64,000 nucleotides of DNA from Chenggangzhangella methanolivorans (GTDB lineage: Bacteria; Pseudomonadota; Alphaproteobacteria; Rhizobiales; Methylopilaceae). The stretch is from positions 5,160,501 through 5,224,500 of the forward strand of contig NZ_CP081869.1 of the NCBI RefSeq assembly GCF_019797865.1, in the 5' to 3' direction. The notes beneath the pieces were generated by a model that saw only the letters and a program-made list of their open reading frames with translations, did not search any database and was not told where the DNA came from. Every line of letters starts with the position of its first letter. Position 1 is the first letter of the stretch. Of this stretch, positions 13,949 through 34,800 are shown in pieces. Made by a program: the position numbers and the translations under genes.

Positions 13949-14931
13949 ATGCGGAAATCCCTGTCACTTGCGGCGCGCCTTGCGGGCGCGGCGGCGATCG
14001 CGCTTGCGGCCTTCGGCGCGCCGGCTTCCGCCGCCGATTATCCGACGCGCCCGATCACGCTGGTGGTGCCGTTCGCGCCCGGCGGCTCGACCGATCTCGT
14101 GGCCCGCATCGTCGCGCAGAAGATGTCGGAGATCCTCAAGCAGCAGGTGGTGGTCGACAACCGCGGCGGCGCCGGCGGCAGCCTCGGCGCGGGCGTCGTG
14201 GCCAAGGCCGAACCGGACGGCTACACGATCCTGATGGCGACGGTCGCGACCCATGCGCTCAACCCCGCGCTCTACAAGAAGATCACCTACAACGCCGAGA
14301 CCGACTTCACGCCGATCACCCTCCTGGTGAACGTGCCCAACGTCCTGACGGTGAACCCGAAGTTCGAGGCGAAGTCGGTCAAGGAGCTGATCGACATGGC
14401 CAAGAAGGACCCGGGCAAATACGCCTACGCCTCGTCGGGCAACGGCTCGCCGCTGCATCTGTCGGGCGTGCTGTTCAACAAGCTCGCGGGCGTCGAGCTC
14501 ACCCACATTCCCTACAAGGGCTCTGGCCCCGCGCTCGTCGACGTGATCGCCGGCCAGGTGCCGATCCAGTTCGACAACCTTCCGTCCTCGATCGAGCACA
14601 TCAAGGCGGGGCGCCTGCGCGCGCTCGGCGTCACCACCGCGCAGCGCGTGCCGAACCTTCCCGACGTGCCGGCGATCGGCGAGGCGCTGCCGGGCTACGA
14701 GACCTATTCGTGGAACGCGCTGTTCGGCCCGAAGGGCATGTCGCCCGAGATCGTCAAGAGCTGAACGAGGCCGGCGTCGAGGCGCTGAAGGATCCGGTCG
14801 TGAAGCAGAAGCTGACCGACGCGACCGCCGTGATCGTCGGCTCGACCCCGGAAGAGCTCGGCGAGCACGTCAAGAAGGAGCTCGCGAAGTGGACGCCGAT
14901 CGTGAAGGAGTCCGGCGCGACGATCGACTGA
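13949..14931 (+). CDS. Tripartite tricarboxylate transporter substrate-binding protein (Bug/TctC), one frameshift
   Basis: A signal peptide ending ASAADYP is followed by the Bug-family start PITLVVPFAPGGSTDLVARI and the DNRGGAGGSLGA loop. A missing base near 14758 creates a premature TGA; the other frame continues LNEAGVEALKDPVVKQKL to KESGATID. The restored length of about 327 residues is normal for TctC-like periplasmic binding proteins that bind carboxylates. No membrane subunits (TctA/TctB) are nearby, which is common for orphan Bug genes. Confidence 0.92.
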
Positions 14932-14951
14932 AGGCGCGAGGAGCCGCATCC

Positions 14952-15550
14952 GGTCATCCCGGCCATGGGGCCGGGATCCAGAACCACGGACGCGGCGTGA
15001 TTTCGGCGCCGGCAGCGTGTCTGGATCCCGGGTCAGGCCCGGGATGACGGGGAGGTTGCGGCGCTCGAAGCGGCGGCCGACCGAGAATGCTGTGGAACCG
15101 TCGCCGGTCATCCCGGCCGGAGAGCCGGGATCCAGAACCGCGGACGCGGCGTGACTTCGGCGCCGGCAGCGCGTCTGGATCCCGGGTCAGGCCCGGGATG
15201 ACGGATGAGGTTGGGCGCTTGACGCAGCGGTCGACCGGAAATGCTGCGGAACCGTCGCCGGTCATCCCGGCCGGAGAGCCGGGATCCAGAACCTCGGGCG
15301 CGGCGTGATTTTGGCGCCGCCAGCTCGTCTGGATCCCGGGTCAGGCCCAGGATGACGGGCGAGGTTGCGGCGCTCGAGGCTGCGGCCGACCGGGACTGCT
15401 GTGGAACCGTCGCCGGTCATCCCGGCCGGAGAGCCGGGATCCAGAACCACGGACGCCGAGTGATTTCGGCGCCGGCAGCGCGTCTGGATCCCGGGTCAGG
15501 CCCGGGATGACGCGGGAGAGGGCGGCGCTCGAGGCTGCGGCCGGCTGTGA
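14952..15550. repeat. Four-copy tandem repeat, unit about 154 bp, with internal palindromes
   Basis: Unit starts, marked by GGTCATCCCGG, fall at 14952, 15106, 15260 and 15415 (spacing 154, 154, 155). Each unit has arms of GGTCATCCCGGCC...GGGATCCAGAACC and TCTGGATCCCGGGTCAGGCCCGGGATGAC that would pair, followed by a spacer ending in GTGGAACCGTCGCC. Copies are about 90% alike. They occupy the 693-bp gene-free stretch after the TctC gene. No spacer diversity of a CRISPR kind is seen. Confidence 0.9.
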
Positions 15551-20642: not shown

Positions 20643-20742
20643 CCGGCTGGCGGCGGTTTCGTTAAGGATACCGACGGGTAAACGTGCAAGCCGCCTTTGC
20701 GCCCTTGCTCCGCGGCGGCCGCCCATGGGAAATTCCCGTCGC

Positions 20743-20817
20743 GGCCCGGTGGGGGAATGGCTACCCAGGGGGCGGGAACGTCCTCGCATCCTGGTTCAAC
20801 TCCAGGTCGGGCCTCCA
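20743..20817 (+). ncRNA. tRNA-like RNA with GNRA-capped anticodon arm
   Basis: The acceptor stem 20743-20749 pairs fully with 20807-20813 (one G-U). The D arm is GGG 20753-20755 with CCC 20764-20766 and an 8-nt loop containing GG. The T arm is CCTGG 20790-20794 with CCAGG 20802-20806 and loop TTCAACT. Discriminator T and encoded CCA are at 20814-20817. In place of an anticodon loop, 20768-20785 forms a 7-bp stem (two G-U) closed by GGAA. If the top pairs open, the loop still lacks U33. An intrinsic terminator follows at 20823. It is not tRNA-Sec and not a recognisable decoding tRNA. Confidence 0.7.
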
Positions 20818-20822
20818 GATGA

Positions 20823-20863
20823 CGAAACGGCGTCCAGCTTGCGCGGGACGCCGTTTCGCATTT
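20823..20863 (+). terminator. Intrinsic terminator after the tRNA-like RNA
   Basis: A 13-bp perfect stem (20823-20835 with 20846-20858) and 10-nt loop are followed by CATTT. It starts 5 nt after the encoded CCA. The T-tract is short, but the stem is very stable. Confidence 0.75.
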
Positions 20864-31820: not shown

Positions 31821-34800
31821 ATGATCGGCGAACTTTCGCGGCGGCAGTTCCTTCGGGCTGCGGGCGCGGGCGTCGCCGGGACGACGCTCGGAGCGATGGG
31901 CTTCGGCGGCGCAGAACAGGCTCTCGCCCAGACTGTGCGGCCGTTCAAGCTCGCGAAGACGACGGAGACCCGGAACACCTGCCCGTACTGCTCGGTGGCC
32001 TGTGGCGTCCTGATGTATTCCACGGGCGACGGTTCGGCGAACCTGCCCAAGACCGTCATGCACATCGAGGGCGATCCGGACCATCCGGTGAACGCGCGGG
32101 ACGCTCTGCCCCAAGGGCGCGGCCCTGCTCGACTTCGTGCGGTCCGACACTCGCCTGAAGTACCCGATGCACCGCAAGCCGGGCTCGGACAAGTTCGAGC
32201 GGGTCTCCTGGGACGTGGCGCTCGACCGCATCGCGCGCCTGATGAAGGACGACCGCGACGCGAACTTCGTGGCGAAGTCCAAGGACGGCGTGACGGTCAA
32301 CCGCTGGGCGACCACGGGCTTCCTCGCCGCGTCCGCGACGACCAACGAGACGGCCGTGCTGACCTACAAGGTCGTGCGTTCGGCCGGCATGGTGGTGTTC
32401 GACAACCAGGCGCGCGTCTGACACGGACCGACGGTGGCGAGTCTCGCCCCAACATTCGGTCGCGGCGCCATGACGAACTCCTGGGGCGACATCGCCTCGA
32501 CGGATCTCGTCGTCGTCATGGGTGGCAACGCTGCTGAAGCTCACCCTTGCGGGTTCAAATGGGTCGTCAAGGCCAAGGAGAACCGCGGCGCGAAGCTCAT
32601 CGTGGTCGATCCGCGCTACACGCGCACGGCCTCGGTCGCCGACTACTATTGCCCGATCCGTCCCGGAACCGACATCGCGTTCCTCGGCGGCGTCATCAAG
32701 TACTTGCTGGAAAACGATAAAATCCAGCATGAGTACGTCAAGAACTACACCAACGTCGCCTATCTGGTGAATCCGGGCTTCGGCTACGCCGACGGCTTGT
32801 TCACCGGCTACGACGAGGCCAAGCGCGGCTACGACACCTCCACCTGGGACTACCAGATGGGCGAGGACGGCTTCGCCAAGACTGATCCGACGCTGCAGGA
32901 TCCGAACTGCGTCTTCCAGCTGATGAAGAAGCACTTCGCGATCTACACGCCGGAGCTGGTCGAGAAGATCTGCGGCTCGCCCAAGGACAAGTTCCTGAAG
33001 GTCGCCGAGATGATCGCAACGTGCTCGACGCCGACCAAGACCATGACGTCGATGTACGCGCTCGGCTGGACCCAGCATTCGAAGGGCTCGCAGAACATCC
33101 GCTGCATGGCGATGATTCAGCTGCTGCTGGGCAACATCGGCGTGCGCGGCGGCGGCATGAATGCGCTCCGCGGCCACTCGAACATCCAGGGCCTGACCGA
33201 CCTCGGCCTGATGTCCAACCTGATCCCCGGCTATCTCACGATGCCGACGGAGAAGGAGCCGGACTTCAACGCCTACATGTCGACGCGCGGCTTCAAGCCG
33301 TTGCAGCCGGGCCAGATGAGCTTCTGGCAGAACTACAAGAAGTTTCTACGTGTCGTTCGCCAAGTCCATGTGGGGCGCGAGCGCGACGGCCGAGAACAAC
33401 TGGGCCTATGACTACCTGCCCAAGCTCGACGTCACCTACGACGTCCTGCGCGCCTTCGACCTGATGGCGCAGGGCAAGATGACCGGCTACTTCTGCCAGG
33501 GGTTCAACCCGCTGATGACCTTCCCCGACCGGGGCAAGCTCACCAAGGGCCTGTCGAACCTCAAGTTCCTCGTCACGATGGATCCGCTCGAGACCGAGAC
33601 CTCCCGCTTCTGGGAGAATCACGGCGAGTACAACGACGTGAAGAGCGCCGACATCAAGACCGAGGTGTTCCAGCTCCCCACGAGCTGTTTCGCCGAGGAC
33701 GAGGGCTCGCTCGTGAACTCGGGCCGCTGGCTGCAGTGGCACTATCCGGGCCAGGAGCCGATCTACGAGTCCAAGCACGACACGTGGATCATGGCGCAGA
33801 TCCATCTGCGCCTGAAGAAGCTCTACGAGGCGGAAGGGGGCGCGTTCCCCGATCCGATCACCAAGCTGAACTGGCCCTACGCGGATCCCGGCGAGCCGTC
33901 TCCCATGGAGCTCGCCAAGGAGATGAACGGGTCGGCGCTCGGCGACGTGTTCGATCCCAAGGACGCGACCAAGGTCATCGTGGCGAAGGGCAAGCAGCTC
34001 GACGGCTTCGCGCAGCTTCGCGACGACGGCTCCACCACGTCCTTCTGCTGGATCTACGCCGGCTGCTGGACGGAGTCCGGCAACAACATGGCCCGTCGCG
34101 ACAACACCGACCCGGAGGACGCAGGACTTGCGCCCAAATGGGCCTGGGCGTGGCCGGCCAACCGGCGCATCCTCTACAACCGCGCCTCGGCCGACCCTGC
34201 GGGCAAGCCGTGGGACGACACGAGAAAGCTCGTCTACTGGACGGGCGAGAAGTGGGGCGGGATCGACGTGCCGGACTACGGCGCGGCCTTCAAGCCGGAG
34301 CAGAACGTCGGCCCCTTCATCATGAACCCGGAAGGGGTGGCGCGGTTCTTCTCCCGCAAGATGATGCGGGACGGACCGTTCCCGGCCCACTACGAGCCCT
34401 TCGAGTCGCCGGTCGCGAACGCCGTCGCCCCGAAGATCCGCGGCAATCCCGCCGCGCGCATCTTCAAGGCGGACTTCGCGGCGCTCGGCTCGTCGGACAA
34501 GTACCCCTACGTGGCCACCAGCTACCGCCTGACCGAGCACTTCCACCAGTGGACGAAGCACAATCGGGTCAACGCGGCGCTGCAGCCTGAATTCTTCGTC
34601 GAGATCTCCGAAGAGCTCGCGAAGGAGAAGGGCATCACGAAGGGCGGCTGGGTCCGGGTCTGGTCGAACCGCGGTTCGATCAAGGCCAAGGCCGTGGTCA
34701 CCAAGCGCATCAAGCCCATGATGGTCGACGGCAAGCCGACGCACATCGTCGGCATCCCGCAGCATTGGGGCTTCATGGGCGCGGCGAAGAAGGGCCACAA

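Follow-up and report, generated by a model that had tools for sequence, protein, structure and literature searches.

Why would a bacterium keep a gene for an RNA that has the body of a tRNA and an anticodon arm that should not read codons? The question is raised by a locus on the plus strand of Chenggangzhangella methanolivorans (contig NZ_CP081869.1, positions 5,160,501 to 5,224,500; this whole stretch of 64,000 nucleotides (nt) is hereafter the window, and positions are counted from its first base). The RNA encoded there belongs to a conserved chromosomal family, whose members are very probably tRNA-Cys paralogues of one apparent origin. Because related RNAs have been kept across the genus and in Bradyrhizobium and its relatives, the RNA probably has a job outside ordinary protein synthesis. 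Handles given in brackets are our own labels for genera (g), families (f), genomes (G), loci (L) and contigs (C).

A conserved family of tRNA-like RNAs

The elements of a tRNA body listed in a preliminary description of the window (a 7-base-pair (bp) acceptor stem, a D arm with GG, a 5-bp T arm with TTCAACT, and CCA) were confirmed by direct reading. The RNA comprises the following parts.

20743-20817, plus strand: tRNA-Cys-like RNA, predicted not to decode, with encoded CCA; 75 nt, class I tRNA body
20743-20749 with 20807-20813, plus strand: acceptor stem of 7 bp, the last a G-U pair; 5′ strand GGCCCGG
20752-20766, plus strand: D arm; 3-bp stem (20752-20754 with 20764-20766), loop with GG, layout matching that of the genome's own tRNA-Cys
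20768-20785, plus strand: replacement of the anticodon arm; 18 nt, stem of 6-7 bp
20774-20779, plus strand: hexaloop GGGAAC, or alternatively a GGAA tetraloop at 20775-20778 if the G-C pair closes
20790-20806, plus strand: T arm CCTGG-TTCAACT-CCAGG; 5 bp, loop TTCAACT
20814 and 20815-20817, plus strand: discriminator U73 and encoded CCA, both present in 61/61 distinct aligned members

The variable loop is small. Unguided folding of the alignment with RNAalifold gave the same cloverleaf as the one drawn by hand. The fold of the RNA plus the hairpin that follows it is 5.1 standard deviations better than that of shuffled sequences, a figure to which the strong downstream hairpin contributes. ARAGORN reported 20743-20817 as 'tRNA-???' with a four-letter 'ggaa'. 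The Rfam tRNA model (RF00005) did not report the window RNA at its gathering threshold, nor was it among the 52 matches of a tRNA scan of its own genome at E<=10, and ten loci of the family gave zero Rfam matches at E<=0.1.

A BLAST search of the region in 101 genomes recovered it throughout the genus (the window's own genome and all 12 others), from two genomes of a sister genus (g3) and from a single genome in another family; a further genome, with a match of just 21 bases, does not count as a member. The RNA was also sought in 397 genomes of the order by a strict pattern in which parts of the acceptor and T arm are fixed. It was found in 32, namely 13/13 of the genus, 3/4 of g3 and 16/18 of a second family (f35). 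None lay outside these three groups, the single genome of another sister genus (g2) included (0/1). The pattern missed one true member, the fourth g3 genome (G016), which was added by a search with a model of the family. The homologues outside the strain on which the preliminary description had staked its proposal therefore exist, in 13/13, 4/4 and 16/18 genomes of the three groups. Across 289 genomes of the class, the window's own included, that genome was the sole match to the strict pattern.

A related pattern applied to named genomes returned at least 119 stretches, of which 118 contain the full RNA and one does not. Among the matches listed, these 118 loci are assigned to Bradyrhizobium (102), Afipia (4), Tardiphaga (4), Nitrobacteraceae without genus (3) and Xanthobacteraceae without genus (2), with two without family and one labelled Frankia. 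This pattern fixes parts other than those of the strict one and calls for one more base in the D loop than the window's genus has; that genus could therefore not be returned. Since some of the named RNAs are identical to those of f35, the second family is taken to be that of Bradyrhizobium, Tardiphaga and Afipia. The 61 distinct members used below derive from 80 of the named stretches and 23 other loci; the other 39 named loci hold 12 further distinct forms, which stand outside the stem statistics. A mobile origin is without support: the window RNA was unmatched in collections of phages and plasmids, and the Bradyrhizobium form was unmatched in plasmids.

The reshaped arm and kinship with tRNA-Cys

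The family is characterised by a shortened loop on a lengthened anticodon stem, 55/61 distinct members having a stem of 6-7 bp and a 6-nt loop. The uninterrupted stem counts 7 bp in 45 members, 6 bp in 10, 5 bp in one and zero in five. Four of these zero counts are due to an A-C mismatch beside the loop and one (L168) to a shifted register, which can be drawn with a 5-nt loop or with a 7-nt loop lacking U33. The pairing of the stem is maintained by compensatory changes of the kind called for in the preliminary description: 325/343 stem cells are paired in 49 distinct arms, some of them from near relatives, whereas 2000 swaps of the 3′ arms gave 257 on average and never more than 281. None of the 61 has the normal arrangement of a 5-bp stem and a 7-nt loop with U33 before the anticodon. 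The earlier proposal of a tRNA body that should not decode is thereby supported, and the short loop on a longer stem would be expected to prevent codon reading.

The central six bases are GTGCAT (24 members), GTGCAA (15), GGGAAC (11), ATGCAT (4), ATGCAA (2) and CAGCAA (2), with CGGCAG, CTGCAA and ATGAAA occurring once each. Thus the GCA triplet lies in the short loop of 49/61 members. All 54 distinct named forms (118 loci among the matches listed, 12 of the forms being outside the 61) keep UGCA, in a region that the search pattern left free. This retention suggests that something, probably the cysteinyl-tRNA synthetase (CysRS), still reads the triplet. The outer loop bases of the window's genus, G and C, can pair and so extend the stem to 7 bp with GGAA as its cap. 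The GGAA-capped 7-bp stem of the preliminary description holds for all 11 distinct forms of that genus, where GGAA is conserved; beyond the genus GGAA is not kept, and the shortened loop on a lengthened stem is what the family shares.

The relationship to tRNA-Cys was assessed in three ways. In pairwise comparison with the tRNA calls of the window's own genome (n=49), tRNA-Cys(GCA) scored best, at 44.5 versus 27.5 for the next. The family model gave the tRNA-Cys locus 72.6 bits and no other searched locus more than 35.5; 49 (pairwise) and 42 (model) of the genome's own tRNA loci or weak matches were covered, its own scan holding 52. In a tree built without the anticodon arm, 14 members and 16 tRNA-Cys, all hand-chosen, were split on one branch with support of 98/99 from a bootstrap that had not fully settled. 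tRNA-Cys was thus the closest relative by all three, and the single branch implies that the loss of the decoding loop apparently happened once. Moreover, each of the 11 genomes with the RNA that were checked contains one ordinary tRNA-Cys and one family member; the window's own genome likewise has a tRNA-Cys (12/12 in all), and three genomes without the RNA have tRNA-Cys alone. The suggestion of a decayed class II tRNA is refuted by the class I body, the kinship with tRNA-Cys and the conservation in two families.

Compared with the tRNA-Cys(GCA) of the same genomes, the family shares the layout of the D arm (in the window's form), G1, G2, C3 and C4, U73, CCA and a small variable loop. It differs in the anticodon arm (mostly 6-7 bp with a 6-nt loop), in acceptor pairs 5-68 and 6-67, in the absence of G19 from the second family and in the 6-bp T stem of g3. 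U73 and CCA are found in every distinct member, and TCCA, left free by the search pattern, forms the 3′ end of each of the 54 distinct named forms. Pairs 5-68 (C-G) and 6-67 (G-C or G-U) are constant in 61/61, a constancy of the acceptor and T arm that is partly by construction for the named loci found by pattern; the same pairs are present in members that BLAST or the model search recovered. None of the 16 tRNA-Cys compared has C5 or G6 (they have A, G or T at position 5, C or T at position 6). In g3 the T stem is 6 bp long in each of the four members and its sixth pair covaries (three have C-G, one has U-A), giving 13 bp in acceptor and T stem together. In the second family the D loop is one base longer and, as read by eye, G19 is replaced by T or A.

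A second tRNA-Cys of decoding type was observed in genus g91 of family f41 (G159, G185, G206 and G318; L082-L085), with a T stem as in the non-decoding family. It is the nearest tRNA-Cys to that family in the tree and lies in a different neighbourhood in the three loci read, where it adjoins what we take, by eye, to be an AMP-ligase-like gene.

Genomic setting

The RNA is flanked on one side by a gene for a protein with CbiG_N and tetrapyrrole-methylase domains and on the other by one for a cytidylyltransferase-like protein, which fits the placement between cobJ and coaD given in the preliminary description. Two flanking elements may be marked.

20705-20708, plus strand: possible -35 element TTGC, lying some 38 bases before the RNA; its TTG near-invariant in 13 sequences of the genus
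20823-20858, plus strand: terminator-like hairpin of 13 bp (20823-20835 with 20846-20858), beginning 5 nt past CCA, with a weak T tail

A consensus scan of the window called zero sigma-70 promoters and zero terminators. Of the terminator that had been claimed 5 nt after the RNA, the 13-bp hairpin stands; its T tail is weak and the scan does not call it. A hairpin 3′ of the RNA is present in all 11 distinct loci of the genus, and the T run is clearer in several relatives than in the window.

The neighbourhood differs among the three groups. In one locus (L002) the RNA follows what we take to be the end of a gyrA-like gene, and in the g3 loci it follows genes that we recognised by eye as carB and greA. 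Among the matches listed for named loci of the second family, 99/101 of those reaching 900 bases upstream have a methyltransferase signature within that distance, and a carB-like start lies downstream in 77/77 of those with more than 2500 bases there. The carB-greA neighbourhood common to g3 and the second family supports common descent. Because the neighbours differ among the groups, action as a cis-regulator of one gene is unlikely. In the second family some of the upstream sequence looks conserved, and palindromic repeats follow CCA in many loci; many Bradyrhizobium loci (L098-L177) have one of two such repeats, CGCTTCGCCC... or GCCTTCGCTGGC..., starting immediately past CCA. A possible partial duplicate of the RNA was seen in three loci (L011, L012 and L013): some 70-75 bases further downstream, a stretch of 26 bases matches its positions 18-45 at 86%. 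Elsewhere in the window, at 14704-15510, translations of open reading frames contain a repeated VIPGLTRDPD...RVRGSGSR motif, which suggests a dispersed repeat.

Possible roles and known systems

In E. coli and yeast cysteine identity rests mainly on U73 and GCA, with U73 alone enough for minihelices, according to the part of PMC9976931 consulted. The reading that we favour, at a probability of about 0.4, is that the RNA is charged with cysteine, excluded from decoding and used away from the ribosome. On this view its own gene would supply the transcript, which would mature like a tRNA, and the single housekeeping CysRS would load it with cysteine by recognising U73, the end of the acceptor stem and, in members that retain it, GCA. 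The reshaped arm would bar it from codon reading, leaving a separate Cys-tRNA for cysteine transfer or for signalling the status of cysteine or of CysRS. In the window's genus, which lacks GCA, charging would have only U73 and the body to rely on, and may be weaker. A narrower version, which we put forward tentatively and hold to be rather unlikely in its full form, is that Bradyrhizobium and its relatives possess a family of cysteinyl-tRNAs dedicated to non-ribosomal use: the ordinary CysRS would charge it, the capped arm would bar decoding, and the constant acceptor stem would be read by an enzyme that puts the cysteine into a lipid, a cell-wall component, a peptide or a sulfur compound. Exactly one match to the CysRS family PF01406 was found in 96/101 relatives, including 18/18 genomes with the RNA, and none at threshold in the remaining five relatives; a dedicated CysRS paralogue was found in none of those 18.

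Several observations weigh against a cysteine-charged RNA with a non-ribosomal use. GCA, a major CysRS determinant, is lost in all 11 distinct forms of the window's genus and in one g3 genome (G015), and the absence of G19 from the second family implies an altered elbow. No general partner gene emerged among the families tested. A methyltransferase dependent on S-adenosylmethionine (PF08241; L296-L300, named loci) ends 59-100 bases upstream of the RNA in the second-family loci measured, and is present in 5/5 genomes of that family with the RNA and in 1/13 genomes without it (at 43% identity). As a general partner it was rejected, being found in 0/8 RNA-containing genomes of the window's family. 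Kin of the peptide aminoacyl-tRNA ligases (PF14028) were matched in 0/26 genomes, no control genome being matched either, which leaves their absence unproven. FemAB-like proteins (PF04339 and PF13480) were present in 26/26 and did not discriminate genomes with the RNA from those without. In the window's own genome PF04339 is matched as two overlapping pieces (C1:4974012-4975129) versus one in the other 25, pointing to a frameshift or an assembly error there.

The main rival, which we regard as possible but doubtful, is a regulatory or decoy RNA: it would donate no cysteine, its targets being CysRS, some other protein that handles tRNAs, or mRNAs with which it pairs. It is strongest for the window's genus, where the arm stays structured despite the loss of GCA, and the constant pairs 5-68 and 6-67, unlike those of tRNA-Cys, look as if another protein reads the stem. 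A precedent is offered by tRNA-Other of Bacillus cereus, a poorly charged pseudo-tRNA with regulatory effects (PMC3399842, consulted in part). However, the retention of CCA and U73 in 61/61 goes beyond the needs of a mere decoy. That the RNA instead decodes, either at Cys codons or in a frameshift or quadruplet event, is improbable. GCA in 49/61 forms would favour it, but 55/61 have a short loop on a 6-7 bp stem, GCA is absent from the window's genus, which shows GGGAAC or GGAA in place of a 7-nt loop with U33 and GCA, and a normal tRNA-Cys is available in 12/12 RNA-containing genomes checked. The 6-bp T stem of g3 (4/4) and the lack of G19 in the second family also speak against decoding.

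A decayed tRNA gene or chance fold might explain why Rfam does not recognise the RNA and why no sigma-70 promoter or terminator is matched, but this is refuted, beyond slight residual doubt, by presence in 13/13, 4/4 and 16/18 genomes together with compensatory changes. Least likely, and very remote, is a place in the selenocysteine machinery, as tRNA-Sec or a selC*-like tRNA. The window does contain a match to Rfam SECIS_3 (32416-32474, plus strand, 82.9 bits), where, given a tRNA-Sec match of 67.1 bits in the same genome, a selenoprotein gene is likely. Acceptor and T stem of the g3 members add up to 13 bp, and matches to RF01852 at 65 bits or more, a threshold of our own choice, are in mild excess in genomes with the RNA (6/13: G000, G001, G003, G012, G017 and G245) over those without it (1/13: G092). 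Nevertheless, seven of the 13 genomes with the RNA have no such match and one without the RNA has it. The window RNA, with a 7-bp acceptor and short variable loop, is not among the RF01852 matches listed and has no long variable arm as in tRNA-Sec.

If the RNA is charged, it would be a long-conserved cysteine tRNA unable to decode, in much-studied soil and symbiotic bacteria, and would point to a new tRNA-dependent use of cysteine. The natural states of the loop (GCA in a short loop, GAA, and the GGAA cap) offer a ready test of the need of CysRS for the anticodon. Literature searches, whose coverage excluded most subscription papers, found no description of the family. Rhodopseudomonas palustris is a relative of Bradyrhizobium. 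In strain CGA009 a lone tRNA-OTHER was called a possible artifact in a 2018 paper (PMC6109142, consulted in part); this unassigned tRNA call may or may not be a family member. A 2026 survey (PMC13092985) covers bacterial tRNAs whose anticodon stems have 4 bp; its main text does not contain the words Hyphomicrobiales, Rhizobiales, Bradyrhizobium or Nitrobacter. In a genome note on Bradyrhizobium icense, three tRNA pseudogenes are mentioned as lying in a symbiosis island (PMC5843721, in part).

Three known systems invite comparison, the last two being the nearest that have been published. Cell-wall tRNA-Gly isoacceptors of Staphylococcus are tRNAs kept off the ribosome as amino-acid donors, carrying glycine and having a normal loop. 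The functional idea is the same as that favoured here, the differences being glycine, the normal loop and the other bacteria concerned. The selC* tRNA-Cys (Mukai et al. 2017; account taken from the part of PMC7609411 consulted) resembles the present family in bearing cysteine identity elements on a deviant tRNA body. However, selC* has an 8-bp acceptor stem, a 4-bp T stem with an A51a bulge and a long variable arm, and in some groups selB*/cysS* neighbours; the window RNA has 7/5 stems and a short variable loop, and shows none of those structural traits. The B. cereus tRNA-Other, likened by its description in the part of PMC3399842 consulted, has a Trp anticodon and adjoins a pathogenicity island; what it has in common with the present family is that it is a tRNA-like RNA thought to work outside translation.
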